From: Hydractinia symbiolongicarpus
Taxonomy: Eukaryota > Cnidaria > Hydrozoa > Anthoathecata > Hydractiniidae
Length of the DNA stretch: 64,000 nucleotides
NCBI RefSeq assembly: GCF_029227915.1
Contig: NC_079877.1
Location: 33,691,851-33,755,850, forward strand
Direction: 5' to 3'
Below are positions 4,445 to 30,668 of the stretch, piece after piece (positions within the stretch are counted from its first letter, which is position 1; every line of letters begins with the position of its first letter). The position numbers and the translations under genes are program-made. The notes beneath the pieces are model-generated. The model saw only the letters and a list, made by a program, of their open reading frames with translations. It searched no databases and had not been told where the DNA came from.

Positions 4445-4451
4445 TTAAGTC

Positions 4452-4855: not shown

Positions 4856-5130
4856 TTAAGTCAAAAAATGTGTGTGCCCCATTTCTGCAAAAATAGAAAA
4901 ATCAATATAACAGCCCACAGTTGCACAAATCAAAGTAACCTGTAATGTTTCAAGTCAAAAAATAAATTGTGTGCCCTGTTTCTACAAAGTAGAAAAATGG
5001 TGTATATATACTTATTCTAAATCCAATTGCACATTGAAATTAATCTGGAACGTTTCAACACTACAAATAAATTGTGTGCCCTATTTCTGCAAAATAGAAA
5101 TTTGATGCAGTCTCATTTATAATTATACAA
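4856..5130. repeat. Last old satellite copies
   Basis: About two and a half diverged units continue after the MITE and end near 5130, with the same GTGTGCCC core and AAGTCAAAAAATA block. Confidence 0.8.
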
Positions 5131-6056: not shown

Positions 6057-6350
6057 ATAAACTCCAGCACCAACATTGGAATAGTTGTTGTCCATTTGAA
6101 ATATTCTGAAATGTTATCAGCAGGAATGTTGGACCTCTTTCTTTGACGGCCACAAGTCCCAGATTTTGCAGGAGTAACACACTTTTTGAGCTAAAAATAT
6201 AGCTTTCTCACACCAAATGTCATGGTAAGCATCAACCGATTTCGGGTAGCTATGGCAGCACTTTTTAAGGCATCAATCATATGAATTCCTTCAAAGACGT
6301 CAATGGACTTGTTCTGAAGCATAATACAAGAAGCTCTGGGGGCTCTAAGA
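6057..6350 (-). pseudogene. hAT-type transposase fossil (DUF4371-like)
   Basis: Read on the minus strand, two pieces in different frames resemble the hAT-family proteins annotated as '52 kDa repressor of the inhibitor of the protein kinase'-like. The upstream piece (about 6350-6195) reads ..CIMLQNKSIDVFEGIHMIDA.., matching the LQxKSxD segment. The downstream piece (about 6188-6057) reads ..CGRQRKRSNIPADNISEYF.., matching the GRQxxRSNxPAxxxxxYF segment of those proteins. A stop and a frameshift separate them, and no long ORF survives. Family assignment is by remembered motif only. Confidence 0.6.
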
Positions 6351-6596
6351 ATTTCCGCTCGCTACCAAAATATTTGATGACAACCTGCTAATTCGTTGTG
6401 TTATCGTGCCAGACATTCGAAGAGGTTTGGTGCATTAAGCTCTGAAGATAAAGCACACATGTGACATTATATCTTAAACAAACGGAAACAAAACGAAACG
6501 TGTCATAATAAACTCACATTTTAAAAGAAATTGCTAACAAAATTACAGCCTATCATTGATAGTTAAAAGTCTTGCGCTTGAAACGTTTATGGTCTT

Positions 6597-6855
6597 AAAC
6601 AGCATTTAGTTGACAAAAAATCAAAATTTTGATGTGACCATCATTTTCAGCATACTTTTTTTCTGTGCCAAATTTTGTTTAAAATAAAGTAGTTAGAATT
6701 TTTGGACCAATTTTGGCCTAAAATGACATTTAGGTGACAAAAATCAAAATTATTATGTCACCATTATGTTTAGCACATTTTTTTGTTAACTGTGCCAAAT
6801 TTTGTCGAAAACAAATACCAATTTTGGCCTGAAACGTCATTTAGATGACTTCCAA
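6597..6855. repeat. About 120-bp tandem repeat, two to three copies
   Basis: Copies share CATTTAGNTGACAAAAATCAAAAT, then CACCAT..TTTAGCA and a final TGTGCCAAATTTTGT block, near 6603-6690 and 6724-6815, with a third partial start at about 6835. A related copy lies at 46440-46560. Confidence 0.7.
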
Positions 6856-7031
6856 GTAGTTAGGGAGCTTGGGTAAGAAGTTTGAATCTGTGACGGAGGA
6901 ACGTGAAATCCCAGGGTCGATTTTTTCTTAAAAAATGCTCCGAAAGAAAAAAACGTCGGTTTTAAAGAATTTCCTACGCCTGCGGGCACGGAAATTCAAT
7001 AAAGAATAATATTTGCCTGTCATACATAAGT

Positions 7032-7520
7032 GGGCCTGCCCACGAGGGTGCCGATAAGCCGCATACACCGTAAAAAGTGCGGGTGTTTTCGGGTAAGTTC
7101 GGCATTTTAAAGAAAATTCAGTATTTGGCCGAAAAAAACCCGCATAGTCCCGAACAATGCCCGAAAAAAAGATTCACCATAAATGACTCTCGAAGAATTA
7201 TTTAAAAAAGTATCAAAATTAGAATGAACTAACTATATGGTAGCTAAGTTCTTAAAAGAACTGTTTTTATGGTTTTGATAAGATTTACTTGATAAATAAC
7301 TTATATATAAACTTTATTACCTCCTTTCTCTTCAAGCGTGTTCTTTAATTGTCTTCCGCCATGTTTATGTTACAAGGTGTTGCATTTCAGGAATGTTTCG
7401 AGCGAGTTCGGGAAAGTGCAGGCGGTTTCGGCGGACAACCGTCAATTTAATTCGAAAAGTCGCCCGAACTCGCCCTTATATATGCGCAGGCGTTTGCGGC
7501 TTATCAGCACCTTTGCCCCA
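7032..7520. mobile_element. Non-autonomous inverted-repeat element
   Basis: The left end (about 7044-7070) has GGTGCCGATAAGCCGCATAC. The reverse complement of the right end (about 7490-7518) has GGTGCTGATAAGCCGCAAAC. A second inverted match of GGG(T/C)(A/G)AGTTCGG type follows inside. The element is about 490 bp and locally more GC-rich than its surroundings. The short plus-strand ORF in it does not resemble a known protein. I could not define a target duplication securely. Confidence 0.65.
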
Positions 7521-7539
7521 ATTATGTTCATTCTATAAT

Positions 7540-7745
7540 AAGTGAGAAATAATATTAGACTGTCGTACACAATCTGGCCTGACCTGATTATGTTCCTTTT
7601 ATAAGTGCCAAATAATTATTTTGAGTAATAAGCCGGCCTGTCCTGATTATGTTGCCCTGATTATGTATTTCCTGCCCTGTTCTTAACCAGGGCAAGCTAC
7701 TTCTTAATCAGGCCAATGTTCATTATCCAGGGCAGAACAGCTATA
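7540..7745. repeat. Cluster of short direct and inverted repeats
   Basis: The motif CCTGATTATGTT occurs three times near 7588-7665, and CCAGGGCA/TGCCCTG-type words occur in both orientations near 7675-7735, giving several small hairpins. Probably the remains of overlapping MITEs. Confidence 0.45.
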
Positions 7746-8104
7746 TGGCTAAAACCTTTACACGCCATTTTTATGAAACAACTGTCTACATAAAGTTTGT
7801 TTACAAAATTCAACTTGCTCAGTCTATAAGAAATTTAAAAAACATTAACAAAAATAACTGAACAAGTAAGACAACAAATTAAAATGATCTAATTACCCAA
7901 GATTATAAACCCCTTAACATACACAGGCGTAACTAGGAAATAAAAACTTAAAAATTTAAAGTATATAGATTCTCTGACCATCTCCTTTCGAGGGCAAAAC
8001 AAAGTGTAATCTATTGTAACCATATACCTTTTCATAATTTCTCCAGGCACCGCTGAATTTAGCGTAACTATGTTCGCCATTTATATATGAAGGCAACCAA
8101 AAAC

Positions 8105-8170
8105 TGTTGACCAATAGCGTAGCAGTATTGACCAACATTACGTCATATATTGGACGCGGGAAAGTTCTTC
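8105..8170. promoter_or_regulatory. Promoter-like motif cluster (tentative)
   Basis: Within about 65 bp there are CCAAT-type words (GACCAATAG near 8109, ATTGG near 8149 on the other strand), a CRE-like TTACGTCAT near 8139, and ACGCGGGAAA near 8154, whose reverse complement TTTCCCGCGT fits the E2F consensus. The clustering resembles a cell-cycle-type promoter. It could belong to a first exon of the SET gene downstream, but no initiating exon was found, so this is conjecture. Confidence 0.25.
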
Positions 8171-8709
8171 GCGCTTTGAGCTGCCAAAGTTTCTTGTGTT
8201 TTTATTTTCTGTTTCTTACTTTCTTTGTTTTCTTTTATTTTCTTATGAATTTGACTAAAACTAACTTCACTGTGATAGCTAGCTAGCATAGCTGAGTGTA
8301 AAAACAGTTTTTCTTATTTGACGCCTTATTATTCTCTTGGTCAAGGTCATAGCTTTCAATTTAACAGCTTTTACTACTGTATATTGTCATGGTTGAAATA
8401 TGGTTGTTTGAATTGCACAAAATACTGGAATCTTAATGTGTGTGTGTTTTCTGGTCCAAATTTGCATTTTTGCACAGAATCATGCACATTTCTTGTGCAC
8501 TTAATGCTCATCTGTCATTGCTTGATGTCAGACATTAGAAACCAGCTTGATACAGCAAGCTTACATTTATTGACTCACCACAAAAAATATAACCTTCCCT
8601 TGAAGTGAGAATAGTATTACAATTTTAACTATATGTCTATTGATCAAATTGGATCAAATACAGCGTTTTCGAAAACAATATCACCAAACTATCTTGCTAA
8701 TTTCCCAAT
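8171..8709. other. Intergenic, nothing recognised
   Basis: AT-rich sequence with one plus-strand reading frame of 96 codons (8318-8608) that matches nothing I recognise and has no coding-like composition. Confidence 0.4.
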
Positions 8710-8971
8710 GATACTGTTCTGCCCAATCTTGAAACGGCCCCCGTCTTAGCCAAATCTGGCCTGGTCAATTCAACAGTACTGGCAAATTCGTTTTTGATGT
8801 ACATACCCCTAATATATTTTTTTTAATGTGCCTGAGAATGTTTGTAGGGTCTTGCAAACAACAGAGCTTGTGTGTCACATCCATGGTCTCCTGCCTAATC
8901 TTTTGACGAACTGGGCATTTTTATGTCCAAATATTGGGCAGTCTCCTAAGATTGGGCAGAACAATACTATC
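8710..8971. mobile_element. MITE of about 262 bp
   Basis: Terminal inverted repeats: the left end reads GATACTGTTCTGCCCAATCTT (8710-8730) and the reverse complement of the right end (8948-8971) reads GATAGTATTGTTCTGCCCAATCTT. The match is nearly perfect apart from a 3-bp gap. There is no coding capacity. Confidence 0.75.
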
Positions 8972-10627
8972 ACAGTATATCTGAATTATGTTTTCCGTCA
9001 AATTTAAGCAAATCTTGTTTTGATTGATAAATTAATGTTGTCATAAATTATTTGATTTTCTGACTTGGTAGTTTGTGGGATGCTCAGATATAGTAACGAT
9101 GTTTTACTACAATAAAAAAGTATATGTTTTGCTTAATTTTTTAAACAAATGTATAGTCTTTTCCTTGCAAAACTAGGAGTTTCTTTAAATACAGTAAACT
9201 CTCCTGAATCTCTTTCGGTAAGTTGCACCCCGCTATGTATTCCTGACCCACTCACACATTTAATTAATCATTTTGTAAATTATTGTGGTTGGTTCTATTC
9301 AGCTGAGACATGATTGCCGCAACTACAAACACCCTGAAATATCTATGTATATATATGTTAAAAAAAGTTGATTATGGTAATAGGTTTTCATGTGAAACAG
9401 AACAATATATTATGGTCCATGTTTAGCATATTTAAATCTTTGTTACTAGGTAAATTGACAATAAATAAAAGTTTGCATCAATGTCAAAAGTAAGTTTTTT
9501 TTCTTGTAGAAAAAAGTACTTAATCCTACTATGGGCTAAATTTCACCATGCAAATGATGGTGGTGAAGAATTCAATAGAATAATTATTCGATTATAATTA
9601 ATAAATTATAATACTTAACAGGCTTAATATAAACGTACTATATTTTGACTTGTATTTGGCATAAAATCACTTTGTCTTTATACTACCATATATTTACATA
9701 TATATTATATATTTAACATGGCCATATTTCTTTTTAAAGTGATGAGAAAACGTCTCTATGAAGCTTGAAAGTTGTATTTATTTTTAAAATGATGAGAAAA
9801 TGTCTCTACAGAGCTTTAACGTGGCCATATTCCTTTTTTAAGTGACAAGAAAACATTTTGTATCATGTTATAAAAAAGTTTGTATGGACTTCGTTTGTAC
9901 TTTTTACTTTAAACAAAGCACTTAATATTGTTTTCGTTTAGCATAACGAAGTATATAATGTACTTTGTATCGTTTGTTTTATGACACAAAAAAACATACA
10001 AACATTTTAAGACAAAACAAAACAGGTAGCAATGATTTTTTGTGTGAAGGTTATTTTACAAAAACACACATTTAATACCCACAATGATTTAACTTTTCTA
10101 ATATGTCAGGCCAGAGCCAGAAAAAGCACCCGCTAAAAAATTACCAGTGCTATATGGAGTGCAAAAAATCGCACTTGTAAGCAAAATTTACAAGTGCAAT
10201 GTGAATATTAGCCAGTGTGAATCACACCTAACTATTTTTTTTTACCACAACGTTTCGTTATTTAAGATGTATAGAAATGATTTTGCAGACTGCCTCATAT
10301 TAGGTGCGCGATCGCACGCATGCACCTTGGCACGGTCCTAAAATGTGTTAGACAAGTGAATAATAACTCGCCTAAAATACGAACTCATTCCTTATGTGCG
10401 TGAACAATCAAGCTCCTAAATAAAACTGTAGCGAGTAATATTATTCAAAGAAATCACATGGAAATAAAAACGCAAAAAATGAAGCGCTGTTTTTAATTCT
10501 TCAATTACGCAGTCTACAAAAGAGGTAATGAATAAAAGATATTTATGTAGAAATGAGACATGAGATCCTAAAACTTGTGTACATTTAAGCGGTACTGTAT
10601 ATGTTATTACAATAATAAAACATTATT
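8972..10627. other. Intergenic, short tandem copies only
   Basis: No gene is visible in about 1.65 kb. A segment with TGGCCATATT and GATGAGAAAA(C/T)GTCTCTA is present as two to three copies near 9719-9855, spaced about 55-115 bp. A small palindromic stretch with CACTTGTAA/TTACAAGTG lies near 10170-10200. Confidence 0.45.
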
Positions 10628-10630
10628 TTA

Positions 10631-11453
10631 AGGTGGCAGTAATCCTTTTAAAAATCGGATTTTTTTTACATAATTGGTGACGTAAGGTTATTTTCAGACT
10701 ATATATATCCAATTTTTTCTGTTATAACACACTTGTCACGATTTTATGGCTATAATACTATTATCTTTCACCAAAAATATTTAGCCTTAAAAATTCCTCT
10801 TTAAAATAAAATTCATGAATAATTAATTAGTTTTCCCGAGTATAGTTTAAGTCTACATGGTTGTGAAATTGTACAGAAAGAAATGATGTAATTATTAAAG
10901 AGAAACGTTAATAACAACAAAGATGGCGCATTATGAAGAAATTTAAGATGATCTTCATTATGCTACATTGCACAAGCTGTAACTTTCAATAGCATTTTCG
11001 TTTTACTTTAAAATTTTCAGACATGCTTGGTGAATCATGCAGCCATGATACGGTGTGCGGAAATCTTTTTATTCGGGATATTTTTCTTTTAACAGCGTTT
11101 GATGCAGCAGGGGATGCTAACAAAAAATCTTTTGAAAAAAGATTAAAGGCTATTGTTAAAAAAATAAGAATGAACAAAAAAAATCCGCACACCGTTTTAA
11201 CAGGGTTAACCCAAGGTTCATTTAAAAACAGAAGCTGATGAAAAATAACGAGATTGTAAAAAGTTTTTCTTGTTTTTGAAACATTTTTAAAAAGAAATTT
11301 CTGCTGACTCAGCAATTTTAGTGTTAAGTTAAAATCATTTTCTTATGTATTAAGGCCTATATTTCTAGGAAATAGTAAAATAAAATGGTATAAATAAAAC
11401 ACTGAGTAAATAATTCAGCTATTTGGACAGCTAAAGAAGGGTTACTGCCACCT
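10631..11453. mobile_element. Inverted-repeat element, about 823 bp
   Basis: The left end is AGGTGGCAGTAATCCTTTT (10631-10649). The reverse complement of the right end (11438-11453) is AGGTGGCAGTAACCCTT. An inner inverted pair, ACGGTGTGCGGA near 11058 and its complement near 11190, lies inside. Reading frames open on both strands across 10986-11315 follow from this inner palindrome and are not convincing as genes. The right end abuts the next element. Confidence 0.65.
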
Positions 11454-11454
11454 C

Positions 11455-11860
11455 AAAGGTTACCTCCCGCAAAAAATTAAGTTAAGCTCATATGAAAGAT
11501 TTTTGAAAGTTCTCTAGAAATCCTTTTATTTTTTTGAAAAATCTTTATCCGTTTCTGAGATATTTGTCTTAAAAGTTGTGCTAATTATGCAAAATTATGA
11601 TGCCATGAGTATGAATTGAGCATAATTATGATAACTAAATGTTAAAATTTATGTAAAAATGTTCAAAACGCGTCAAAGTGAATGGCTAGGAAACATTTTT
11701 AACTCTCTATGGCTTGTCATCATGCATAATTAGTAAATCTTCTTAGTCCAAATTCTAAAGAACCAATCAAGAATTTTTAAAAAAATATTCAAATTCCTAG
11801 ACAGCCTTTCAAGTACTTGTATATGCAGTTACCTTTATTTTTCGCGGGAGGTAACCTTTA
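11455..11860. mobile_element. MITE of about 406 bp
   Basis: It has a perfect 16-bp terminal inverted repeat: AAAGGTTACCTCCCGC at 11455-11470, and its exact reverse complement ending at 11859. The interior is AT-rich and non-coding. Its left end lies within two bases of the right end of the preceding element. Confidence 0.8.
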
Positions 11861-12082
11861 AATAATTTTAGGTAACATAAAATTTATTCAAATTTTTGTA
11901 AAATTTAAATTTAATTTAGTAAAATTATTTTTTTACTATATGAAAGGAATTTTATTTGTGATTCTTTAGAGTACATCTACGTTTCTTGAAAAAAATAAAA
12001 AAGTGACCTGGCTGCCAAAGGGTGAAATTCTACTTTTCATTTACTTCAATTTTTATTTGTTCATCTTTGTATTTATTTTTAG

Positions 12083-12883
12083 AGACGACAGAATAAGCGT
12101 GAGACAGACCCACGTTCTATTGCAAAGTATTATTGCAAACAAAAAGCAGATCAAAGTGGTTTCCAGAAATTATTCATCAATGACAACATAGGTATACATC
12201 TATTATGCTTCCAAATAGGGTGTGAACTGTTTTACATTATTATGATACAACTTTTTTTATAAGGTTTTGGAGTGTTTGCTACAAAAACATTTCAACATGG
12301 TGAATTTCTTCTTGAGTATGCTGGAAATTGTATTAGTAAAGTTGAGGGTGAAAAATTGCAATCTACATATCCTGATGAAGCTGGTTCCTTTTTATTTTTT
12401 TATAATAACAGTTGGTAAGCAAATTGTACATATATGTTGTGATTATTTTAATATCCACAGCAGTTACTTGCGTAAAGATTGTTGGAAAGAAACTTTATTT
12501 ACGAATTTTGTAAAGAGCACAGGATAATTTTTGCAAATAAATGCCGGCAAAAAATATTTTCTTTTGAGAAAAATGGAAAATTTGATTTTCATAAAATATT
12601 CAGGAAAATTGTCACAAAAGTCAGTTGTGAAATTTGAAAAGTACTCTAGGTAATATACTGCAATTTTAAGATTATTTATAATAGCATTGATGCAACTGAG
12701 AACACACAGTTTGGGAAATACGTTAATGACAGCAAAAATGCCAAAAACTGTTGCATGAAACCGATATATGATGATAATGGGCATTTGCATCTTTGCCTGT
12801 TTGTTTTGTGTGACAAAGTCATATCTATTGGAGAAGAGTTGAGATATTCGTATGGAGATATGAAAGAACTTTTTTGGAGAAAA
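12083..12883 (+). CDS. SET domain exons, KMT5A-like lysine methyltransferase domain
   Basis: Three exons give residues 1-153. Visible SET motifs: GFGVFATKTF (37-46, the GxG cofactor-binding start), FLLEYAG (51-57), CIDATENTQFGKYVNDS (87-103, the position of the N-H-S motif) and GEELRYSYGD (136-145, the catalytic-Tyr segment). The family (KMT5A/SET8 and relatives) transfers methyl groups from S-adenosylmethionine to histone or other lysines. Here the usual Asn-His-Ser is Asn-Asp-Ser, and the ELxYDYG segment has Ser for Asp. Cofactor-binding residues otherwise look kept, so activity is possible but unproven. Introns are phase 1, then 2, then 0, and all three exons have good GT/AG sites. Confidence 0.85.
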
Positions 12884-15800
12884 GTGAGTATCTTTGTCAC
12901 TTTTTTGTTATTTCTTTTTAGTTAGATTTTATAGTTGTAATGAATCAGGCTTCTCATTTTAAAAATAGGTGCTTATGTGATCAATCACATACGCCAGTTC
13001 ACCAAGTTACGCGATGCAATTGTCCTCTAAAAAGGCATTCCTGGAATGCCTTTTAAAGGACATCAACTTCCATTAAGGATACGGTAACCCCCTTAGACAC
13101 ATTCTCAGTATATTTAAAATATCTTCTCTGCTTGCTTTATTAACTGTAACAAATATATATATATATATTCTGAAAGCCAAATAAATTATCTCTAGAATGA
13201 TGATAAAATATTTCCATAAAAAAATCCAAGAAGGAGAAAAAAAATTATTTACAGAAATTCACCTTTCTAGTATATTTTACCAAACACTCCCTTCAGTAAA
13301 ATTTTTGTTTCTTGAAAAACATATGGTTGCAAAGATCTTATTCAGCTCTAAATAACTTTGCTTTCTTTACTCAAAACAAAACGTGGTTCAAAAAATATAG
13401 CATATTTTGTTTTACAACAGCTGTTTTATGACTGATTTATCAATTTTTAAGTATATGATGGATCAATAGCTCGATATTTTCTCACTTTTGCGCTAAAAAA
13501 AGCAAAGTTTTGTAGCCAAATAAATTGTCGCAACAAACTTATTTTCATAGAATTTCGACAAAATGGAGAGGAGTGTTCAACAAAACTATGTACTGTTACG
13601 TTGGAAAATTTTATTTCGAGAAAATGCAATTCAAAAATTTTGCACTGCAAAAATCATGCTAAAGGAATGTTATGTTTGTGAATAATTAATAAGTCATGAA
13701 TATTTTATTAAACATAGAGGTAAAGTGTTTTTGCAGAACCTAGTTATTACCCTAGTTACCCCTTACTTATCATACAGGTTAAATATATTAGAGGAATTTT
13801 AAAACTCCTTAATTATCATACAGATTAAATATATTTGAGGAATTTTAACTTTGAGCACACACAGATTTTTTCTCATTTTGTAACTTTTAGGCGACTTCAA
13901 CTTCATTAGTTGTTCTACAGGCTCGACAGACTCTAATTTTCACGAAAACAAAAAAATAATATCGGCTAAAACGTTTTGTAACAGAAAATCTGTTACATAT
14001 TCGTTTTTAGCGAAGAATTTTATTATTTCTGCAAGAAGAATGCAGTTATTTACGTAATTTGATAGTTAAATTTCTTTAGAAATTGACAATGTCTTATAAA
14101 CATGTGTGACAATTTAAGTGATTTTAAAGCAATTTGAACCGAAACGAATTTAACGTAGATGAAACGAATTAATTCTTATTTTTGTGAAAAACTAATGGGA
14201 AATGAATACAAAATGATTTGGAAATGATTACGAAATGAATTTCAAATCAACCAAGCGAGTTGAAACGGTTACAAACGATTTTTTTGAATTTTTTTATTTT
14301 TTAACCGCCGTTGTTAGTGTGTATTTCTTTATTTTTGTTGTTGTTCCAACCATACATTCTCAATAAAATTATTTTTATTTTGCCACCCGACCGTAAGTTA
14401 CTATCGATTTCTCCCGTAGAACATTGGAGTTGCCTTAACAATAATTATTTTTGATTCTTTTTTGAAAAATATCAAAAAAATATTCGAAAATTTTTTTTGA
14501 GAACTTCAACCGTTACTTCTATTATGTTTAGAACAAGGAGACTGCTTCACCATATTTTGCAAATATTGATGTTGTTACCAAGCAGGGAGTAAGTTTTTTT
14601 GTAATATATACATTTTTCTTTTTCTTCACTAGAGTAACTGCTATTTTTCTTTTCTTTCTTTTCAGTTTGTTTTGTGCGATCCTGGGAATGTAATTGTGAG
14701 TATCCAATCATAGATTTTGAACTTTTTGTTCAAAAAATTCTTGTGTTTATAATAAAACCTTTTTTGTGATTTTAGAATAACCAAAAAAAGAAAATTTATT
14801 CTGAACATGTAAGCCATCTACATTTTTAAGGCAAAATGTTTTTGTATCAATATTGTAATCTTTCATGATGTCCACGTTTTGGTTCCTGTTATTAGCCATA
14901 CTAAAAAGTTAATTTTGAAGAAAAGCTTCCACGATATTAGCTCTAATTACTGTACAAGTTATTTTGGAATAATTTTAAGTTATAATCAGTTATATATCCA
15001 CAATTTTCATTTTCTCTTTTTCATTTAAATATTTTATGTTGTGTAGTTTTTAAGATTGGAATTCTGATATGTGTCAAAATGACTTAATTTTATCCAATTT
15101 TTGAAAATGATTTGTTTAACCAATATGTTATCGATTTCAATTTTTTTGTATTTAATAACAAGAGTTAAACTGTAGCACAATATTTATGTTTTTACCATAC
15201 AACAAAAAATATGTTGCTAATAAAGCAATCTTTTGCTCCTCCATATAGACGAAACATACACAAAGATAATGTTTGAGAATCACTCCCATAAATAAAACAA
15301 AATTATTTCTACTGTACAGTAATTTTTTGCTAATATTGCACTTAGGATGATGAATTCATTTCTGGTAGTGCAACAACAGAGGAAGATGTCAAGGAATGTC
15401 TGGACAAGGTAAGATATATACTTTAATTATGTTGTTTTTAACGTTACATGTATCTTAAAAATATTGAATTATTTTTATTAGATTCATGATTGCATTCTTC
15501 AAACAGAAGTGATAGGTTTGTAATGTGTGAAAAATTCTCAATTACGTAACACCCTTTCCCATGCTATCTCTAAAAATGTGTTTGTTTCGGGTAAAATGGC
15601 TGGGTGAAATGTTATAAGTACAAAAAGTTTATGAATTATTTATAAATACACATTGTATGCCAAATCCATATAATTTGAAATAATCAGTGTAAATATTTTA
15701 ATTCACACTCTTTATCTAATTAAATTCTGATTTGGTTTGTTTGTTATGTTATTAGGTTTATAGGTTGATTTATTAGGTTTGTTATTTTCACGTGTCATGC

Positions 15801-18800
15801 AGATTTTCACATGCTTTGCGCAGAATGTCAAAAATATGACAATATGATACTGATTTTTTTTATGTAAAAAATATTATCGCCTACCTAGCTGTTAAGATAT
15901 TTTAATGTGTCGGTTACAGAAAACAGACATATTTTTATGGATGGTCTCACTTTAAGTGCCTAATTCCAGTAATTATAACATTATTTTCCTAATTTGCTTA
16001 CACTTATCTATTTTATGCTGTACTATAGGTTCTGGATTCTGTAGATACTGTTTTGACTGATTTAATTCAAATAGAACTTATGCAGGCTAAATTTATTTAG
16101 GAGGGTCCATCTGGAAAATTAATCTCATTCTTCTTTGGGATGATATGAAAAAGGTTAAACAAAGATATTACAACTTGGTTAAAAAAGGAAAATCCAGAGG
16201 CAATATTGAATTGTAACTAAATAGTTTAGAAACATGAACTGAACAATATATAAGTTTCTGAATAATTTGAGTAGCATACACCCTGAACTGCAATATATAT
16301 GTATTATACACATGTTATTTACTTTTGAATACTCCTTACCTGATCTATTTGTTTTAGATAATGGGGAAAATGACGAAGAAAAATGTGATCAAGTAGTTGT
16401 TCGGAAAAAAGACGGAAGTATTGAACTAAAATCTGACACCTGTGTAAAAGATAAAGATGATGTGAATGCAAAGTTTATTGATGTTGTTGATGTATATGAA
16501 CCCAAGAATAACGATCCTGTTCGTTTATATAGTAAAAACGTAGGCGAAGGAAAAGATTCAGTTGCTATCAATGGTCAGAATGTTGATTTGTGTGAAAAAT
16601 TAGAGGAGGAAGTAGAGGAAAATATTAAATGCAAAGGTTTTAATGGTGGTTATCAGACAAATGGTGCTACTGTTTACATGCAATTAGAAAATATGGGAGG
16701 GGAGAAATATTGTGTTCATAAACTCCAACTTAAAGAAAATGTTGAAAACACATCTATCATACAGGATATGGAAATAGTTGGTGAAAATAAAGAACAAGTT
16801 GCTGCTGAAATCATTACAGATATTGTCAGTGTTATAGATAGAAGTGTCACTAATGACAAGGTTCTTGATTTTGTTGATGTATGTGAACCCAAGGGCAATA
16901 ATTCTGATAGTTTACACAATCAAAGTGTAGGTGAAGGCAAAGATGCAGTTTTGGTCAATCGTGTTGCTGGTAGTGTGAGTTATAAGGTGGATAATCCTAC
17001 TGTTTATACACAAGTAGAATCAAACGAAGGGGACAGATATTGTGGTGATGAACCTCTACATGGACAGAATGTTGAGGAAACGAATATTGCTGGTATACAG
17101 GATATGAAAATAGGTTGTGAAAATAAAGAACAAGTTGCTGAGATCATTGCAGATGTTGTCAGTGTCCAAGGTCGAAATTACAAGAGTGCAGATGTGGTTG
17201 CATCAGGTGTAAATACGTACAAGAACAGTACTTACCAATCAAAAAAAAAGATTCAGGAAAATATTGGCAGTGGTGTAAATAAAAAGAATGTCATTGGTGG
17301 AGATAAATTTGCAGACTACTACAAGGACATAGATTTTGCCAAGCTGGATTGTAGTGACGATGATGTAAAAATTACTTATCCAGTATGTATGCAATTCATG
17401 ATTCCGTTTAAAGTATAATTTTTAATTGTATTGATGATAAATATTTATGTTTCAGGAAATTGAAATTGTCCCTGATTTCAGCAGTTCTGACAGTGAAACA
17501 GTAAGTATTGAAGGTCCAGTAATTCCACTAATAATACTTAAAAATTTTAAACTTACTATTCATTTTTTAGTGTTCCATTTTGAATGGTAGTAATGAAGAA
17601 ACAACTTTTCCATTAAAAATTAATTTTAGGTAATTATTGTTTTCAAATATTACAAAAAGTGATAAAATATTACAAACGAAACTATGAAAAATTGGTGTTT
17701 TTATGGTGTCATTCACATGAGATTTGCTGTAAACGATGTAAACAATGCTTTTTTAGTCGAAATTAAAGTAACTTATTTAGTTCTTTAAAGATAATTTTGT
17801 TGTAATATTTCTATGTTTATTTTTTAGAAATGACAAAACTGAAACACTGGTATGTTAGAATTCTCCCATATACATTTTTGTTATAATGAAGAAGAACTAT
17901 TTTGTTCATCACTAACATACTGCCAGGCAGCGAGTGGGATTCGAACTCCGGACCCTAGAGTTGGGAGCCAAAGACAAAACCACTACACCACACTACGGCA
18001 ATATGTTAGATAGTTTATCTGGATGGTGCACCTATGTAGGTGAATCTTTATTGCGATATAATAAAGATTCACCTATGTACATTTTTGTTTTTGAAGATTT
18101 TAAATTGTGAGGAGGAGATATAGATAGCACCTGATTTAATATAAGAAATGCTTAGACTATTACCGTTATAATTATGCTATAAAGACATTGCACATTTTTT
18201 TTATTGGAATACAGTGTAGTTGAAGTCCACTAGAAAGTTGTACGGTGTGATAATTTTAGTAATAAATTGATGCTATTTTATTTTTAGACAAAAGTATTGG
18301 AGAAGTTCGTATGTATTTCATCATTACTCATATATTTTTTACATTGCAGCATTTCTAATTTAAATTTAATACAAATGCCGGTATATTTTCAGCAAATGTT
18401 AGTTCAGGTTAATAAAATTTTCATGTTTTTTTTTGCTGCTAAAATATACTGTCATCGATTTACCTAAATGTTGAAAATTATGAATTGTTGAAGTGAAAAA
18501 ATGAAAAATTAACTTCATGGTAAAATTACCTGACAGTTAATTTTGGTTTACAAAGGTTACATTGTGATGCACTGGTTATAATTAGAGAAAATTATAGGAA
18601 ATTCTTCATTTATTCAGAAAATCATTAAATTTAAAAGATTAGATTTTATAAAACCAAATCTTTTTTTGTGCTCAGTAACTTTTCCATTTAACGCCAATTT
18701 AATGGTTTATTGGTTGAAAACTTATTTTTGTAGAACTTTTGTTGAAAATCATGAAATATTGACATTTTGTGAGAATTTAATTTCTCGGATTTGACCCAAA

Positions 18801-21800
18801 CTTGCTTAATTTGCCTTGTGCATTGAAGGCATGTAATTTCAATTTTTTTGTTTTTATTTTTTTTAAAAATTTATTTTAAAAGTACTTGTTTTGTCAGTTG
18901 TCTGATGTTATGACTTGGTAATAAAGCATGCACCACCAAATGATTACTTAATTAAAGCAATATGTAGTGTAGTTCCAGCATTCATGCCAAAGTAAGAAGA
19001 ATGTTAATTCTAGGAGTCCAATTTTCTCATCTCCTGCATTTATAAGGTCAAAGTCCAAAATCAATTCCATTAGGTCCCACGGTCAATAGTAATAATTAAA
19101 TACACCTAATAGTTACTCTTTATTAATGTTAGATGAAAGTTGATCTTGAAGAAATAGAAACTCTAGCATCGACAAAGGTATTGTATGTTTGTAATAACTT
19201 TTCATACATCCTTGCATAGCTTTTTTTATATCTGGAAATTTTGCAGGTGTGTCAAGTTGCTGAACATACGCAGACCATTAGGGAAGTCAGCTGTTGTGAA
19301 CAAGTGAGTTTTGTGATGATGCTTATTTAATTTACAATGATTTGTTCAGCCCTTTTGAACTACCAACAAGTTGCTTCCTAATTTATTATTTTTAATTATC
19401 AATAGTATTATTTAACACAAACAGGTTTCAGTGAAAAATGATTCTGGTTTGGAGATTGATGAGGATTTAGACATTGTGAATACTGATAGTGAACAGGAAA
19501 CAATTGAAGCCGGGTCTAAAAAACTGCAGGTACTATTATCGATGCATTTTAAGATTGTGTAAACTTATATACTACTGACTGATTAATACTTTCCAATGCT
19601 ATTTTATTTAAATTTAGGATTATTGATGCAAGGCTTTATGTTTTGTGTTATGTAGCAATTCTAGAATCATCTTATCTTTTTATTTCAGAAAAAAAGTCCT
19701 TACAAAAAACCGTATAGAATGTGCATTTATTGTTCTATAATGTCTTCAAAATTGAGCAGACACATTAAAAAATGTCATAAGGAAAATGAAAGAGTGAAAA
19801 ATGCACTAAAGATGACTAAGGTGAAGCAAATTGAGGAATGGAAAAAAATTAAAAGGGAAGGAATTTTAATGTACAACAAGTTGCAAGCTACCACAGAAAA
19901 TCCTATTTTCCAAGGAGAACGTCAAAGAAAGAAATACTTGGAATTGCAACGTTGTAATTTATGCTCTGCTTTTATCTCTAAGCGTTTCTTTGCCAGCCAC
20001 AAAAGAACGTGCATGAGAAGACAAGATGCTGTCCCAACAGGCTTGCCATTGTCACTGGACTTCCTTCCAATGTCACTCCAAATGTCGGATCAATTCAAGG
20101 AAGTCATTTTGGCCAAGCTTAGAGATGATCCCGTAGGTAAGTTATCATTTTTATATTTACGTTACGAGCTTTTTTCCATACTTGTTCATAGTTTAGCAAT
20201 TGATTTGTAGGACAGCTTTATGGTGATAACATCCCTGTTCTTTACATTTGTTACCAATTCATGAAATTTTCATTGTTCTTTATTAAATTATTACGAATAA
20301 CTACAGTAATCAAAAATAATAAAAAATTGCAAAGGAAACTTCTGGGATTTAAGGAGTTAAAAAATACTTGTACTATTCATTAAAAGTCCTTATGTATTTC
20401 ATAGAAATCCTTAATTCATTCAAATAATTATTTAATGAACATAATCATGTTACATCCTGGATATGATCAAGTGTAACATTTTTTTGTTGTTTTTTATGAG
20501 CGAAATAGTAAAAAAGTGTTCAATTAAAGTTGTAGTTTAATTTAAAAAAAAATATATGAATTGATCTTTTAGATTATTGACCTAATTCATAAAATTATGT
20601 TTTCAAAAGGTTTTAAGTTTATTTCGTTAAAATAAATACTCACAAATGTTTGACAGAAAAAAAATGTAGGTTTATTTAATTTGTATTCACGCCCCCAAAG
20701 GTTTAAGAACATCTATTTCAATGTACAACCTTCCACTGTACATTAAAATTGATGCAAATAATGTTTTTTTCAATTTTCTAAACCTTTAAACACAAAATGA
20801 ATATTTGAAAATTTAATTTGCCTTGTTTAATAATAGGAAATATATGTCGCAAAGATGAAATGATATTACGAATTGGAATGAAGTTGTTTGCAAAGCTTGT
20901 AGTCAAAAAAGAAAAAGCAGCCACCGTGAATAAATCTGTTAGGGGTCATATGCGAGTGTTAGGTAGCCTGTACCAATCTTTTAAGAGGATGAATGGCGTT
21001 TGTCATGATCATGGTAATTTGTTAGATATGTTTGTGCGAAAGAATTTTACGTGTTTTACTGATGCCATTGACGCTGTTACTTTGAATGTTGATCGTAGTC
21101 TTAAGCCAGGACTACGCCAGAATGTTTTTTACATCATCAACAAAAGTGTAAAAATATTGTATGCTCATCAATATATGTTAGCTAACGAAGAGGAGGCCAG
21201 TGAAATCGAAAAATTTATGGTATGCTATAAAGCCAACGAGGATTGCATGGTTTCCTCTGCACGATACGAGCTTGAAAAAAAAAGGCTAGTTAAAATAAGA
21301 AAACCATGTCAGTTGCCTTTGGAAAGCGACATTGAGAAAATACATCAACATATTCTCAAGAGAATGGGTGAACTACTGTGTGTTTTTGAGTTATGGACTG
21401 CTCACTCTTTTGTTGAACTGAGGAACTTAGTACTCACACGACTAACATTATTGAATGGGCGCCGTGGTGGGGAAACAAGTCGCCTCCTAGTAAAAGATTG
21501 GTTAGAAGCAGAAAGCGATAACTGGATTGATCAACAACGTCTTCAGAGTTTGAATGAAGCTGACAAACTATTAGTGAGTTCACTAAAAATAACCTACATG
21601 ACGGGTAAAGGAAATCATCATTTGGTGTCTGTTTTATTTCCAAACGACACTACTTCTGCTATGAAAAGGTTAGTTGATCCAAAATTTAGATTCAAGGCTG
21701 GTATCGATAAAAATAATGATTTTGTGTTTGCCAGCACACAGCTGTCATCTTTAAATGTGTCTGGCTGGCATGCATTGAAAGAAGTCTGTAAGAAACTAGA

Positions 21801-24629
21801 ACTTACCAATGTGGAAATTATAAATGCAACCACTAATAGACACCGCGTCAGCACTTTATATGCTGCGTTGGACCTGCCACAACAGGAAAGACAACTGTTC
21901 TACGCCCATATGGGTCATTCTGAAAGCATGAATAAAGATATTTATCAAGCCCCATTAGCTTTAATGGGAGTCACAAAGATTGGAAAACAATTAATAAATC
22001 TCCATGCAAGCGGTATGTATTTATTTGTTAGGGAGGAGCCTTTCTCTATGGAATAAAATTGTGGAAGTGGCACGCATTCTAGGTAACAACTTTATCATAG
22101 ATCATGAGTGGTAAATTTAATTTTTTTCTTGTTTATTGAGATTTAGGAAACCAGGATATAATGGAAGACTTGCCGGGTTATGTTTTATTAAACCTTTTTT
22201 ATAAATTTTTGTCGTTTTAACCACTGTATTTCATTTATTTGTTTAATTTTTTCTTATAATGTATTTAACAAATGTTCAAATCAGCTAATATTATTTCACG
22301 ATTATTATGATCGAAATAATACGTGTTCCAAATTTGATTTCATTAAAAAATTATTAAAAGATTGCAGATGAGCAAAATGTAGAATGACTTTTCATGATTA
22401 GCAAGTCTTTCAGTGTTTATAACTTGATTGTTTATAGATAACGGTCATATTGAAGAAACTGATAAAAGTTTAAAAACATTTAAAGACAAAACTCATACAG
22501 GTATGTGTTGCTTTTTCTAATGTTGTCTGGTGCAAATAGAGAAAATTTCTGTTAGTTACAAAACTCGTTATTTTGTTCTTTTTATTAGTCATTGTTTTTG
22601 ATGAAATTTTTTCAAATCAATGTGTGATCCAAAACCTAAAGATCTTCCCCATCATTGTTTTATATTGTTTGGAAAATTACCTTGAAGCTGCTCAATGGAC
22701 TACATAGCAGACTAATACTTTCTTTCTTTAGAAGACAAGAAATTGGCAACTAACTATGCAGTGACAAGTACTCCCGTAAGAACATCAGCTGAAGGTTAAT
22801 ACTTCACTGTAGTTTATTGATTCAATCCTTTGGGCCTCAGTGACTTGCAAAGTGTTTGTTTTTTTTGGTTTTTTATTCAGCGACAAAGACAAAAAGATCA
22901 GTGGGGAAAAGAGTGATGATGCTGTCGAGCAGTTCATCGGATGAAGAAGCTATTGAATCAAAAAATGGTTAGTTTTAAATTTAATTTAAAACAACGTCTG
23001 ATTTATAATACCAACCATGACCTTGTTTTAGATATACGATGGTTTTTTTGTTTTTGTTTTTAGTACCAGTTGAAGCTAGGAAGTATCCTTTGCGTGGTGA
23101 GTGGTTTGAGTTTTGATTTTTTTGCCAAACAATATTTATTCAACCTGTCCTACTCTGCATTGTGGGAAATGTTTATTTATAGAACATTGAATTTGAAAAC
23201 CAGACCTTATTTGTTTTAAATCTCACATAGGTCAATTAAAAATCATATCTGGTCTTGATGAAATATAAGTTGTTTTTATAGTCCTCTATGCAAAATATAT
23301 TACTTAACGTTTTTGCGGAAAATTGTCTAGTATCACTAATATTAAACGTAATATTTTTACAAATTACATGTACTTAACTTTTTTTCACTTACTTAAAAGT
23401 AATTGCGAGTTCACCGAAATAAAAATGTATTTTTTGTTGACCATTTGATTGTACATTTGACTTTGAATTATAGGCAGATCAAAAAAAAGAAAAAAGTACG
23501 TTAAAATTACTGGTGAGTATCCTTTCAAGAGTCTTTCTGTTTTAATTATTTATTTTAGTTTTCTCAATAACACTTAGACAGTTATGAAAATTATTTATAT
23601 ACCGAGAAATATCAACCTGGATTGTTTAAAATTTATGGGATGTACAAGTATTTTTTGCAAAAGATGTATTTCATGTTTATGAATATCCATTTCTATCTAG
23701 ATGCCCAAATTAGAGATGATTCATGTGATCCTACTTCCTATGAAGGTAAGTGATGTAAAAAATTAAGTTTAAAGAAACCTTTGTAGGTTGCTTCGTGTGC
23801 AAATTAGATTTTAAAGAATTTGGCGTCTTCCCCAATCTTAAATTCTCTCAGAAATTCAACTTTCCAATGATCCTGGAGATTAAATATGTTGAAAAATGCT
23901 TAGATCTTTCAAGTGTCATTAACTTTACTGATTTTTGAGTTGCCATAGTATAAAAACGCTGCTATATATAAGTTATAAAGGACAATATTTTTTCTGTTAA
24001 AGCAATAATAGTTTGAATGGTCGTCTTGCTAACCAAGAGTTATAATTTCCAGGAATTTTCTAGTTTAAAAAAACAACCAGATTTTATTCCAATAGATAAA
24101 GAAGAGAATGAGAGATTGAAATGCAAACGTAAGTTGAACACTTTTATCGCTTCTTCATATATATAGGTTTAGTTAAACCACTTTTTTAGGTTTGATATTA
24201 ACAAAACTTATCTTATTGTTGCTTTTATACTTAGCTGTCAAATCCAGTGTCAAGTGGACTTCGGAATTAAATAAAGTGTTCTTCGAAAAATTTGGTTGTT
24301 ACGTGCGTCGCACCAATGATCGACCATTTCCAGGTATCAAATAATTTAGCTTTTGTTCGATGGTTTTTAAGTATAGGTAAATAGATTGTTTGAACAATCA
24401 CTTGCAAATGAGGCATAGTTGCTTAAAGCAACTATTTTGTGTCTTTTGTGCGAGTATACTCAATCATTCTTGCATTATTTTAGGTCGACTGGAAATGGAA
24501 AATTTTGCAAAAAGTTACTTTGGATCAGCCAATTTTGCCTTCGCTGTGCGAACAAAAATAAACAACGAGCGGAAAAAGTTCGATGACATAAAGAATAAAA
24601 GGTTGAAAGAAATTGGACTAACTAGTTAA
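12083..24629 (+). CDS. SET domain / zinc finger / Crypton-type tyrosine recombinase chimeric gene
   Basis: I assembled 28 exons by splice consensus and phase: 12083-12191, 12264-12414, 12685-12883, 14532-14588, 14666-14695, 14776-14808, 15346-15408, 15482-15515, 16358-17382, 17456-17500, 17571-17629, 17828-17849, 18288-18308, 18393-18407, 19133-19177, 19247-19303, 19425-19529, 19689-20136, 20837-22012, 22438-22500, 22732-22794, 22881-22967, 23064-23096, 23474-23512, 23701-23745, 24096-24128, 24235-24333, 24484-24629 (stop TAA). All join in one open frame of about 1,433 codons. The start codon is not located: an in-frame TAG lies just before 12083, so at least one upstream exon exists; 11970-12002 is a weak candidate. 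Residue numbers below count from 12083. Predicted role: a chromatin-associated or DNA-binding protein descended from a transposon recombinase. The architecture is seen in sequence; the function is inferred. It could be two genes with intervening exons misjoined, although phase agreement throughout argues against that. Confidence 0.75.
14532..15515 (+). CDS. Short linker exons after the SET domain
   Basis: Five small exons (14532-14588, 14666-14695, 14776-14808, 15346-15408, 15482-15515) of 57, 30, 33, 63 and 34 nt. The first four are in phase 0, and the last ends in phase 1 to join the long acidic exon. They encode linker sequence with no recognised domain (for example NNQKKKIYSEH, basic, then DDEFISGSATTEEDVKECLDK-type acidic sequence). 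Each has a good acceptor (TTTAG/TTCAG) and donor (GTAAG/GTGAG). Micro-exons of this size are easy to miscall. Confidence 0.6.
16358..17382 (+). CDS. Long acidic spacer exon with internal duplication
   Basis: This 1,025-nt exon enters in phase 1 (completing Asp) and leaves in phase 0 at CCA|GTATGT. The protein is acidic and polar, rich in Asp, Glu, Asn, Lys and Val, with no recognised domain. Two related modules are visible: EPKNNDP..VGEGKDSV..VYMQLEN..IIQDMEIVGENKEQVA (from about 16500) and EPKGNNS..VGEGKDAV..VYTQVES..IQDMKIGCENKEQVA (from about 16885). The offset is 387 nt at the VGEGKD block and 336 nt at the ENKEQVA block. Likely a flexible linker between the SET and DNA-binding halves. 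Confidence 0.75.
17456..19529 (+). CDS. String of small linker exons
   Basis: Eight exons of 15-105 nt (17456-17500, 17571-17629, 17828-17849, 18288-18308, 18393-18407, 19133-19177, 19247-19303, 19425-19529) continue the frame, mostly in phase 0. They encode acidic, Ser-rich linker (EIEIVPDFSSSDSET and similar) with no recognised domain. The 15-nt exon 18393-18407 and the 21-nt exon 18288-18308 are the least certain; either could be skipped without changing the frame. Confidence 0.5.
17926..18000 (-). mobile_element. tRNA-derived SINE fragment in an intron
   Basis: On the minus strand, a box A-like TGGTGTAGTGG (about 17994-17984) and a box B-like GAGTTCGAATCCC (about 17957-17945) are spaced as in a tRNA gene. 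The T-stem and acceptor stem do not pair well, so this is not a functional tRNA but a pol III-type SINE head. It lies in the intron 17850-18287 of the chimeric gene, antisense to it. Confidence 0.6.
18037..18075. repeat. Perfect 16-bp hairpin in an intron
   Basis: TAGGTGAATCTTTATT (18037-18052) is followed by a 7-nt loop, GCGATAT, and its exact reverse complement (18060-18075). Near the adjacent SINE head, it may be the terminus of a small palindromic element, or a snap-back RNA structure in the intron. Confidence 0.7.
19689..20136 (+). CDS. Paired zinc-finger exon
   Basis: The exon encodes two finger-like motifs. The first is CIYC..RHIKKCH (residues 702-720, C-x2-C-x9-H-x4-H). The second is CNLC..SHKRTC (779-798, C-x2-C-x11-H-x3-C). 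A basic, likely helical stretch lies between them (KVKQIEEWKKIKREG). Fingers directly before a tyrosine-recombinase domain are, as I recall, typical of Crypton-like proteins of aquatic animals and suggest sequence-specific DNA binding. The exon enters in phase 0 at TTTCAG and leaves in phase 1 at GTAG|GTAAGT, joining the recombinase exon. A read-through frame continues to 20210. Confidence 0.8.
20837..22012 (+). CDS. Crypton-type tyrosine recombinase domain
   Basis: This 1,176-nt exon carries a tyrosine-recombinase (phage-integrase fold) core. Visible signature: GRRGGE with the first catalytic Arg (about residue 1049), TGKGN with the candidate beta-hairpin Lys (about 1097), NRHRVST, which occupies the HxxR box (1174-1176), HMGHS with the second His (about 1200), and DIYQ with the nucleophile Tyr (about 1209). 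An N-terminal helical core-binding region precedes it. In Crypton elements this enzyme cuts and rejoins DNA through the Tyr. All key positions appear present, so the domain is not obviously dead, but the gene has many introns, which points to a host gene rather than an active element. Catalytic alignment is by eye. Confidence 0.8.
22438..24629 (+). CDS. C-terminal tail exons of the chimeric gene
   Basis: Nine small exons, with every intron between them in phase 1. They encode linker, then a Ser/Glu-rich and basic stretch (MMLSSSSSDEEA, GRSKKRKKYVK, a possible nuclear localisation signal) and a C-terminal block beginning KWTSELNKVFF..PFPGRLEMENFAKSYF and ending KKFDDIKNKRLKEIGLTS before the stop. 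The final block resembles the short Trp-containing helical module found after the recombinase in Crypton-like animal proteins (W-T-x-E..F..GKxP). I infer this from memory. Confidence 0.65.
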
Positions 24630-26838
<2,209 letters not shown>

Positions 26839-27568: not shown

Positions 27569-28026
27569 GGCTATCTACACGAACAAAATTACGAATCCAA
27601 GGTTATCTACACGAACAAGGTTACGAATCCAAGGTTATCTACACGAACAAAATTACGAATCCAAGGTTATCTACACGAACAAGGTTACGAATCCAAGGTT
27701 ATCTACACGAACAAGGTTACGAATCCAAGGTTATCTACACGAACAAGGTTACGAATCCAGGGTTATCTACACGAACAAGGTTACGAATCCAGGGTTATCA
27801 ACACGAACAAGGTTACGAATCCAAGGTTATCTACACGAACAAGGTTACGAATCCAAGGTTATCTACACGAAAAAGGTTACGAATCCAAGGTTATCTACAC
27901 GAACAAGGTAACGAATCCAAGGTTATCTACACGAACAAAATTACGAATCCAAGGTTATCTACACAAACAAGGTTACGAATCCAAGTTTATCTACACGAAC
28001 AAGGTTACGAATCCAAGGTTACGAAC
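27569..28026. repeat. 32-bp minisatellite, about 14 copies
   Basis: The unit is GGTTATCTACACGAACAAGG plus TTACGAATCCAA. Copies vary mainly at AAGG/AAAA and CCAAGG/CCAGGG. Because 32 is not a multiple of three, the open frame across it cycles through three peptide phases, so it is not a plausible gene. It ends just before the LINE fragment. Confidence 0.95.
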
Positions 28027-29938: not shown

Positions 29939-30668
29939 GTTACTTATAAAGTGGTTACTTATAAAGTAGTTGCTTATAAAGTGGTTGCTTATAAAGTGGT
30001 TGCTTATAAAGTGGTTGCTTATAAAGTGGTTGCTTATGAAGTAGTTACTTATAAAATGGTTGCTTATAAAATGGTTGCTTATAAAATGGTTACTTATGAA
30101 GTGGTTACTTATAAAGTGGTTACTTATAAAGTGGTTGCTTATAAAGTGGTTGCATATAAAGTGGTTGCTTATAAAATGGTTACTTATGAAGTGGTTACTT
30201 ATAAAGTGGTTGCATATAAAGTGGTTGCATATAAAGTGGTTGCTTACAAAATGGTTACTTATAAAGTGGTTGCTTAAAAAGTGGTCGCTTATAAAGCGGT
30301 GACTTTTAAATTAGTTGCTTATAAAGTGATTGCTTATAAAGGGGTTAGTTATGAAGTGGTTACTTATAAAGTGGTTGCTTATAAAGTGATTGCTTATAAA
30401 GGGGTTAGTTATAAAGTGGTTGCTTATAAAATGGTTGCTTATAAAGTGGTTGCATATAAAGTGGTTGCTTACAAAATGGTTACTGATAAAGTGGTTGCTT
30501 ATAAAGTGGTCGCTTATAAAGTGGTGGCTTTTAAATTAGTTGCTTATAAAGTGATTGCGTATAAAGTGGTTACTTATAAAGTGGTTGATCATAAAGGGGT
30601 TGCTTATAAAGTGGTTACTTATAAAGTGGTTGATCATAAAGGGGTTGCTTATAAAGGTGTTGCTTATG
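29939..30668 (+). repeat. 15-bp minisatellite, about 48 copies
   Basis: The unit is TATAAAGTGGTTGCT, with A/G and CTT/CAT variants and a few ACT or GATC variants. Because the period is a multiple of three, long open frames run through it in several frames (YKVVA/YKVVT, IKWLL). The lack of a recognisable start, flanks or domain makes this a repeat, not a gene. It starts at the 3' end of the LINE fragment. Confidence 0.93.

Follow-up and report, generated by a model that had tools for sequence, protein, structure and literature searches.

A SET domain and a tyrosine recombinase joined in one gene of a probable (TA)n-inserted mobile element in Hydractinia symbiolongicarpus

In one gene of Hydractinia symbiolongicarpus a SET domain resembling that of KMT5A/SETD8 is followed by two zinc fingers and a tyrosine recombinase (YR), and this gene very probably belongs to a mobile element (probability roughly 0.9), which is probably a large DNA transposon moving by tyrosine recombination. 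The DNA analysed, hereafter the window, comprises 64,000 nucleotides of assembly GCF_029227915.1 (NC_079877.1, 33,691,851-33,755,850, forward strand). The element spans 30,195 bp, of which the part inside the window occupies positions 1-26689 (+); its left end lies outside, at window position -3505, which equals position 6495 of L027. The left part carries a 105-bp satellite array of 28 units at 1-2962, with further units at L027 9298-9579, and the right terminus, ...GTCCCCCTAACGTGGAATAAAGAAG (26610-26689, +), was placed by comparison of copies. Both ends abut a target microsatellite, whose left half, (TA)103, lies at L027 6288-6494 and whose right half, (TA)74, lies at 26690-26837. Neither Rfam nor tRNA scanning yielded a match in the window.

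Copies of the element with both ends were found at least 8 times, at lengths of 29.5-32.2 kb, on six contigs and with differing flanks, and at least 10 full-length YR exons occurred at 99-100% amino acid identity, none of them with stops. These counts are lower bounds, as 150 of 232 SET candidates, 105 of 223 YR candidates and, in one copy search, 2 of 5439 candidates were scored. The right ends of nine copies stop at one identical base and one terminus is common to 12 left ends, while long units including introns were copied at about 97-99.9% identity. Exons and introns diverged at 15/4296 versus 105/10037 positions in the C4 copy and at 31/4295 versus 155/10755 in the C5 copy, with rough dN/dS values of 0.29 and 0.40, respectively, each based on few changes. 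The coding comparison covered three of the seven other complete copies, and the C7 copy, with one change, yielded no ratio. A search for terminal inverted repeats gave just a weak subterminal match that was equalled in 6 of 1000 shuffles.

All nine right ends lie beside (TA)n of at least 15 units (one partial match of ten, C1:27669859 with 87 bases, was omitted). Exact left ends lie beside such runs in 9 of 12 cases, the exceptions being C7:12883995, C13:17201545 and C1:24270843; of 15 left-end matches, three without the exact terminal motif were omitted, two of which are also beside (TA)n. In the window's 37,162 bp to the right of the element, and in the 30,195 bp of the element itself, no run of this length occurs. 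An empty site at C2:35979540-35979820 reads CGTCAAACT(TA)99 TGGA(TA)7 TGGAACTGG, and the matching filled site reads CGTCAAACT(TA)43, element, (TA)137 TGGA(TA)8 TGGAACTGG, which shows that the element entered an already existing (TA)n array. This site is paralogous rather than allelic; of the seven copies whose flanks were searched (C7:12883995 being omitted from the eight complete ones), one yielded such a site. A second subfamily, with a YR 41% identical, runs into (TA)n at nine of nine right ends, the DNA beyond the array being read in two of the nine copies; its left end was looked for and not located.

The gene occupies window positions 9481-24629 (+) and consists of 28 exons in a single open frame, predicting an intact protein of 1431 residues that differs from the NCBI model at eight. 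The first coding exon (9481-9489), ATGTCAAAA followed by GTAAGT, encodes MSK; it is the sole match to MSK followed by GT within positions 1-12083, and protein P0001 starts with MSKRRQ. In the gene model, exon 2 (12083-12191) forms the N-terminal side of the SET domain, which continues through exon 3 (12264-12414; GFGVFA, also placed by Pfam and PDB sequence comparison) and exon 4 (12685-12883; CIDAT, VNDS and ELRYSYGD, also by sequence and fold comparison). Exons 5-17 (14532-19529) encode a linker of small exons and one large exon at 16358-17382. Alignment of relatives placed two zinc-finger-like motifs in exon 18 (19689-20136), and alignment and fold comparison placed the recombinase (RRGGE, TGKG, NRHR, HMGHS, IYQ) in exon 19 (20837-22012). 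Exons 20-28 (22438-24629) form the C-terminal tail and stop in the gene model, exons 25 and 26 joining in phase through an acceptor at 24096 according to the model and the comparison with P0001. The tail ends in a short conserved region (VKWT...VRTKINNERKK) found by alignment in several relatives; Hydra, urchin and sea cucumber proteins end in a similar way. In P0001 the zinc-finger ligands are C700, C703, H713 and H718, and C777, C780, H792 and C796, all of them unchanged across the 20 relatives aligned. PHROGs and NCBIfam searches gave no useful match.

The SET domain (residues 40-147 of 1431) is of the KMT5A type by both sequence and fold. SETD8 was the best PDB sequence match (E 3.8e-17) and nearest in predicted fold (E 1.5e-11), with 42 of 116 aligned residues identical to human KMT5A. 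The domain lies near the N-terminus of a long protein, unlike the canonical KMT5A/SETD8 layout of a short protein with a C-terminal SET, as given in sections of PMC10368294. A protein search with the SET region found only P0001 among 49 candidates, and a tree of nine element SETs and human KMT5A gave no resolved branching. The NHS motif is variable among relatives, reading NDS in the window protein and several others and keeping NH in urchin P0022. This substitution, together with the level of identity to KMT5A, would fit a transposon whose SET domain has lost methylation and serves as a binding module; such a loss is rather unlikely, as the fold is kept, both tyrosines of ELxYxYG are conserved in 8 of 8 sequences of alignment A4, and the domain is present across hydrozoan and echinoderm relatives.

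That SET, fingers and recombinase sit in one spliced gene, as the preliminary description proposed, is borne out by the 28-exon model. The comparison with other animals that it suggested found SET and YR in one predicted protein, in the same order, in Hydra, S. purpuratus, the crinoid Anneissia and one metagenome protein; this search scored the 7990 candidates sharing most words, its counts being lower bounds, and the named matches included no fish protein. Gene predictors may instead have merged two genes, one for SET and one for the zinc finger-recombinase, since the stretch that links SET to the fingers is long and shows little conservation, models of some relatives (P0002, P0003) are without SET, and the models described in part of PMC10368294 comprise both shorter and longer SET genes. 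The single open frame through 28 exons and the shared order in predicted proteins of several animals argue against such a merger, which we regard as improbable.

Pairing is also seen across the genome. In 28 of 85 merged YR loci a SET match precedes the YR on its own strand by no more than 20 kb; none lies downstream and one is on the other strand. On longer contigs the pairs comprise 25 of 79 YR loci, and random placement of the longer-contig SET matches gave a whole count of 3.3 on average and 6 at most (200 trials, three pairs on short contigs being left unmoved and the contig end taken as the largest match coordinate). For 57 of 85 loci no SET match was found; exons there may be split, candidates may have gone unscored, or the domain may be truly absent. 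On a YR tree, 8 changes are required to explain where SET is present, compared with 8.8 on average after shuffling, so that it is not clustered; the tree holds 27 of 79 fetched proteins, hand-picked and mostly with a named source, and some of their models may be fragments.

The predicted YR fold is nearest to the Xer/Cre type, with matches to XerH, Cre and lambda Int in the fold comparison. For the YR model, Foldseek by itself had XerA as its best match at E 0.053, with nothing below 0.001, and searching PDB sequences with a profile built from the YR alignment yielded no recombinase; one emerged from the fold comparison only. Pfam returned no DUF3504/Crypton match for the window protein and 12 relatives, and PF00589 was matched by one of the 12 (E 0.0039). 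The conserved R, K, R, H and Y positions are present in the alignment, R1047, T1169, H1198 and Y1207 being invariant in 20 of 20 relatives and R1172 nearly so. Of the Crypton catalytic tetrad R-H-R-Y, the first histidine is thus the doubtful position: many tyrosine recombinases have it three residues ahead of the second arginine, whereas here, as judged by eye, the residue seems to be T1169 in 20 of 20 relatives, so that YR catalysis is putative.

The preliminary description had read the gene as an independent, domesticated host fusion, a reading abandoned here because the 30-kb element that contains the gene is present in multiple copies, has defined ends and is matched by an empty site. A host gene in which a Crypton-like recombinase was joined once to SET and now acts as a host chromatin enzyme would account for the intact gene, the domain order common across phyla, the rough dN/dS below 1 and the embryonic expression of related KMT5A-like genes reported in portions of PMC10368294. 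Intact genes with dN/dS below 1 are, however, also produced by a young autonomous transposon, and the eight copies with both ends, ten near-identical YR exons, unlike flanks and (TA)n ends speak against a host gene. A domesticated single gene was rejected on the copies with element ends and the empty site, and its probability is very low; some other single-copy relative could be domesticated.

An endogenised large DNA virus is about as improbable. The insertion niche and enzyme layout resemble those of crustacean nimaviruses, some of which, in the parts of PMC10871703 concerned, insert as endogenous elements in microsatellites, several via zinc-finger tyrosine recombinases. Against this, a Pfam scan, not exhaustive, of six ORFs in the left part of the Hydractinia element recognised no viral gene, and the element has no recognised gene other than that for SET-YR. 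The scan of the six ORFs likewise showed no reverse transcriptase. A recent segmental duplication of an ordinary gene region, which the near-identical intron-containing units would suit, is largely refuted by the end mapping and the exact empty site, as termini are fixed, right ends lie on (TA)n, outside DNA differs and a second, diverged subfamily acts alike at its right end, and it is the least probable reading.

The mobile element can be compared with several known systems. SETMAR of primates is a single domesticated gene of SET and a mariner (DDE) transposase; it too joins SET to a transposon enzyme, whereas the Hydractinia fusion lies inside a mobile element and involves another enzyme class. 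Starships are described as likewise large elements built on a tyrosine recombinase, but are fungal, reach about 700 kb and carry cargo genes; the Hydractinia element is of an animal, with one recognised gene and an extra domain fused to the recombinase. Animal Cryptons are tyrosine-recombinase DNA transposons, and the Crypton-type label of the preliminary description is fair as an enzyme class, although Pfam lends it no DUF3504/Crypton match. In the relevant passages of PMC3212892, no terminal repeats were found for animal Cryptons, as none are clear here. No C-terminal domain is reported and no SET domain appears in the domain figure legend there, whereas the Hydractinia protein has both SET and a conserved C-terminal region; zinc fingers, a length of about 30 kb and the (TA)n target set the element further apart. 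Nimaviruses share the large size, the microsatellite sites and, in the same parts of PMC10871703, telomere-type recombinases with C2H2 zinc-binding and SAM-like domains. They differ in having viral genomes and in (AT/TA)n insertion by a Ginger2-like DDE enzyme, the tyrosine recombinase being the only candidate enzyme for (TA)n insertion of the Hydractinia element. The term "SET domain" does not occur in the text of PMC10871703, and passages of PMC3537659 and PMC6431247 searched for SET held nothing of this kind. No earlier description of the element was found in open-licence PubMed Central, and a consensus may already stand in Repbase or Dfam.

In the proposed mechanism, zinc fingers and C-terminal region would bind the element ends, the recombinase would cut these, probably yielding a circle, and recombination would take place inside a (TA)n array, leaving TA on both sides with no separate target duplication visible. 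The SET domain may methylate nucleosomal lysines, H4K20 perhaps, close to the bound ends or the target, and could thereby time movement to the cell cycle or set the chromatin of new copies; its effect is the least certain step.

The claim that the system is undescribed calls for qualification. A 2023 paper (PMC10368294) reads the "KMT5A genes" that are expanded in Hydractinia, Hydra and sea urchin as predicted H4K20 methyltransferases, with up to 65, 24 and 61 (S. purpuratus) annotated KMT5A-like genes, respectively, and 22 switched on early in Hydractinia embryos. These are long genes, with an N-terminal KMT5A-like SET in most and C-terminal ends alike between Hydractinia and S. purpuratus. 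That paper treats them as methyltransferases, whereas the C-terminal part is identified here as a mobile-element tyrosine recombinase; a term search of its text found neither "recombinase" nor "integrase". The present findings suggest that at least part of the reported expansion in hydroids and sea urchins probably consists of transposon genes. More tentatively, at somewhat below even odds, a lineage of animal transposons may encode a chromatin writer of its own, and the wave of KMT5A-like transcripts at Hydractinia genome activation, and later in sea urchin development, may largely be expression of transposons, perhaps altering embryonic H4K20 methylation, with the recombinase bringing an active KMT5A-type methyltransferase to element ends and (TA)n targets.

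With the empty site and two diverged subfamilies, tyrosine-recombinase transposons gain (TA)n arrays as an insertion niche. Long (TA)n arrays are difficult to assemble, so such elements may be under-counted. The finding adds a histone-methyltransferase-type domain, fused to a recombinase, to the proteins a DNA transposon makes itself, and transposon-encoded chromatin control becomes testable. If true, the published expansion, read as H4K20 methyltransferases reprogramming embryonic chromatin, would partly consist of mobile-element genes.

The preliminary description had placed a SET domain, zinc fingers and a recombinase in one spliced gene, and this is borne out by 28 GT-AG-bordered exons spanning window 9481-24629, which form a single open frame of 1431 residues plus stop. 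The predicted protein carries its SET domain at residues 40-147, followed by a long linker, two zinc fingers, the tyrosine recombinase and a C-terminal region. Its closest protein is the NCBI uncharacterized protein LOC130649644 isoform X1 of Hydractinia symbiolongicarpus, at 100% identity after rounding in the recombinase region and with 8 differences from the window protein.

Copies were sought in the genome of the species itself (480.9 Mb, 76 contigs, here C1, C2 and so on), in which the window corresponds to C3:33691851-33755850. At least 112 matches to the SET domain were found, of which copies on C7 and C4 share the window's score and stop pattern, and the recombinase exon occurs in at least 10 full-length copies of 99-100% identity without stops. 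Comparison of the stretches around the copies delimited a collinear unit that begins at window -3505 and ends at 26689. Queries with its ends gave 15 matches to the left end and 10, one of them partial, to the right end. Both ends are present at eight places, 29.5 to 32.2 kb in length: the window's own copy (C3:33688345-33718539, 30,195 bp), C4:23741809-23771933, C5:34695485-34726786, C7:12854538-12883995, C7:23709778-23741721, C2:32313695-32343735, C2:14436767-14468188 and C1:23472753-23504909. An additional C1 copy at 27.67 Mb is truncated on both sides. A 105-bp satellite array lies within the element, at window 1-2962 and at 9298-9579 of L027, a fetched stretch.

The whole coding sequence was compared for the C4, C5 and C7:12.85M copies, and the recombinase exon for the other four. 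Coding differences amounted to 15 of 4296 bases to the C4 copy and 31 of 4295 to the C5 copy, with 105 of 10,037 and 155 of 10,755 compared intron positions differing, respectively. Rough dN/dS was 0.29 against the C4 copy (7 silent, 8 replacing) and 0.40 against the C5 copy (12 silent, 19 replacing). This pattern, drawn from few changes, fits, without proving, a recent spread from copies with a working protein.

With the loci re-oriented, nine of nine right ends and nine of twelve exact left ends adjoin (TA) runs, which range from 15 to 174 units, and the DNA past these runs differs from copy to copy. No (TA) run of at least 15 units occurs inside the element or in the 37,162 bp of the window right of its own run. 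A second locus at C2:35.98 Mb has both flanks of the C2:32.3 Mb insertion (identity 99 and 100%) with 215 bases between them; this empty site, the one obtained from seven insertions searched, is paralogous, not allelic. It reads CGTCAAACT[TA]99 TGGA[TA]7 TGGAACTGG, and the filled site reads CGTCAAACT[TA]43, element, [TA]137 TGGA[TA]8 TGGAACTGG. The element thus entered a pre-existing (TA)n array, and the flanks outside that array stayed complete. The C7:23.7M insertion lies in a repeat, two other copies of which (L056, L057) likewise have (TA)n at that position. The gene had been read as a one-off fusion domesticated in the host, a reading that fails because it lies in a multi-copy element with ends in (TA)n and a paralogous empty site.

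One repeat flank adjoins the right end on C47 (C47:2973-7316) and the left end on C7 (C7:23709441-23709778), as if (TA)n sites accepted either orientation. Three left ends, L031 (C7:12883995), L040 (C13:17201545) and L044 (C1:24270843), carry the exact terminus but no (TA)n next to it; later rearrangement or another target may account for them. A DDE_Tnp_4 transposase frame (E 1.8e-14; L027 5732-6287) is cut off at the (TA)n left of the element.

Right of the element, minisatellites of 32 bp (window 27572-28021) and 15 bp (29939-30667) are present. By eye, a GPCR-like frame was seen at 32960-33910 on the plus strand. On the minus strand, also by eye, a RecQ-helicase-like frame (40498-41883) is flanked by a duplicated membrane-protein-like frame (38256-39416 and 43446-44781), and a von Willebrand A/collagen repeat-like frame lies at 54184-57533.

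In the proposed mechanism, the zinc fingers and the C-terminal region would hold the element ends, and the recombinase would cut and rejoin within TA steps that the ends share with the array they enter. A crossover of this kind would leave TA on both sides, so that a target duplication would be indistinguishable from array sequence. The SET domain would act wherever the recombinase binds, or it might act only as a binding module.

Merged matches gave at least 85 recombinase loci in this genome. At 28 of them a SET match lies on the same strand no more than 20 kb upstream; no locus has such a match downstream, and one has a match on the opposite strand. Random placement of the SET matches of longer contigs gave a mean count of 3.3 and a maximum of 6 (200 trials), counts that include three short-contig pairs that were not moved; when only the longer contigs are counted, 25 of 79 recombinase loci had an upstream same-strand match. 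A second subfamily, its recombinase 41% identical, has nine copies with identical scores. Its right end, ...GGTTGATATAGCGT, is followed by (TA)n in 9/9 copies, the DNA past (TA)n differs between the two copies read, and its left part has its own tandem repeat units (L070, L071, L088-L095), unlike the 105-bp satellite. Other SET matches extend over the entire domain within a single open frame of 160-518 residues (e.g., C1:30388925, C2:13181258, C7:9286797), several with identical scores and none paired with a recombinase match; these may represent a further mobile family that carries SET.

The recombinase region as query returned 21 proteins, and a recombinase profile at least 67 (E up to 1e-10). 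Relatives occur in Hydractinia, Hydra, Mytilus and, going by the source names of the proteins, sea urchins, sea cucumbers, a brittle star and a crinoid. Clams contributed more distant proteins, a beetle protein matched over a short stretch, and metagenome proteins were also returned. By BLASTP, 12 of 79 fetched proteins carry the SET domain, one of them weakly, and these come from Hydractinia, Hydra, S. purpuratus, Anneissia, Diadema and one metagenome protein. A protein kinase domain is also present in two Hydra proteins and one Hydractinia protein (P0035, P0036, P0004), and Mytilus P0059 has PF02902, the Ulp1-type peptidase. Among P0004, P0035, P0036 and P0005, the kinase precedes the recombinase, either alongside SET or with no SET match. 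The front of the recombinase family is therefore modular. In a recombinase tree of 27 of the 79 proteins, SET-bearing rows are scattered through hydrozoan and echinoderm parts alike; the branching of a SET tree (nine element SETs plus human KMT5A) is not resolved.

The recombinase had also been called Crypton-type. Insofar as its mode of action can be judged, the element works like a Crypton; animal Cryptons, however, are described in PMC3212892 as lacking a C-terminal domain, whereas the window protein has a C-terminal region after its recombinase. Since sequence kinship with Cryptons is not established either, the element is not classed as one. Among endogenous nimaviruses, zinc-finger tyrosine recombinases can accompany microsatellite insertion, according to a portion of PMC10871703.

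A 2023 study (PMC10368294) puts the number of KMT5A-like genes at up to 65 for Hydractinia, 24 for Hydra and 61 for S. purpuratus. In most of them the SET domain is N-terminal; the C-terminal ends of the longer Hydractinia and urchin genes are alike, and 22 Hydractinia genes are activated in early embryos. The expansion was interpreted there as H4K20 methylation for chromatin regulation, and the words recombinase and integrase are absent from its text. Some of the genes in that expansion are probably transposon genes. The locus studied here belongs to a family of large transposons that look recently active and in which a chromatin-enzyme domain is joined to the recombinase.
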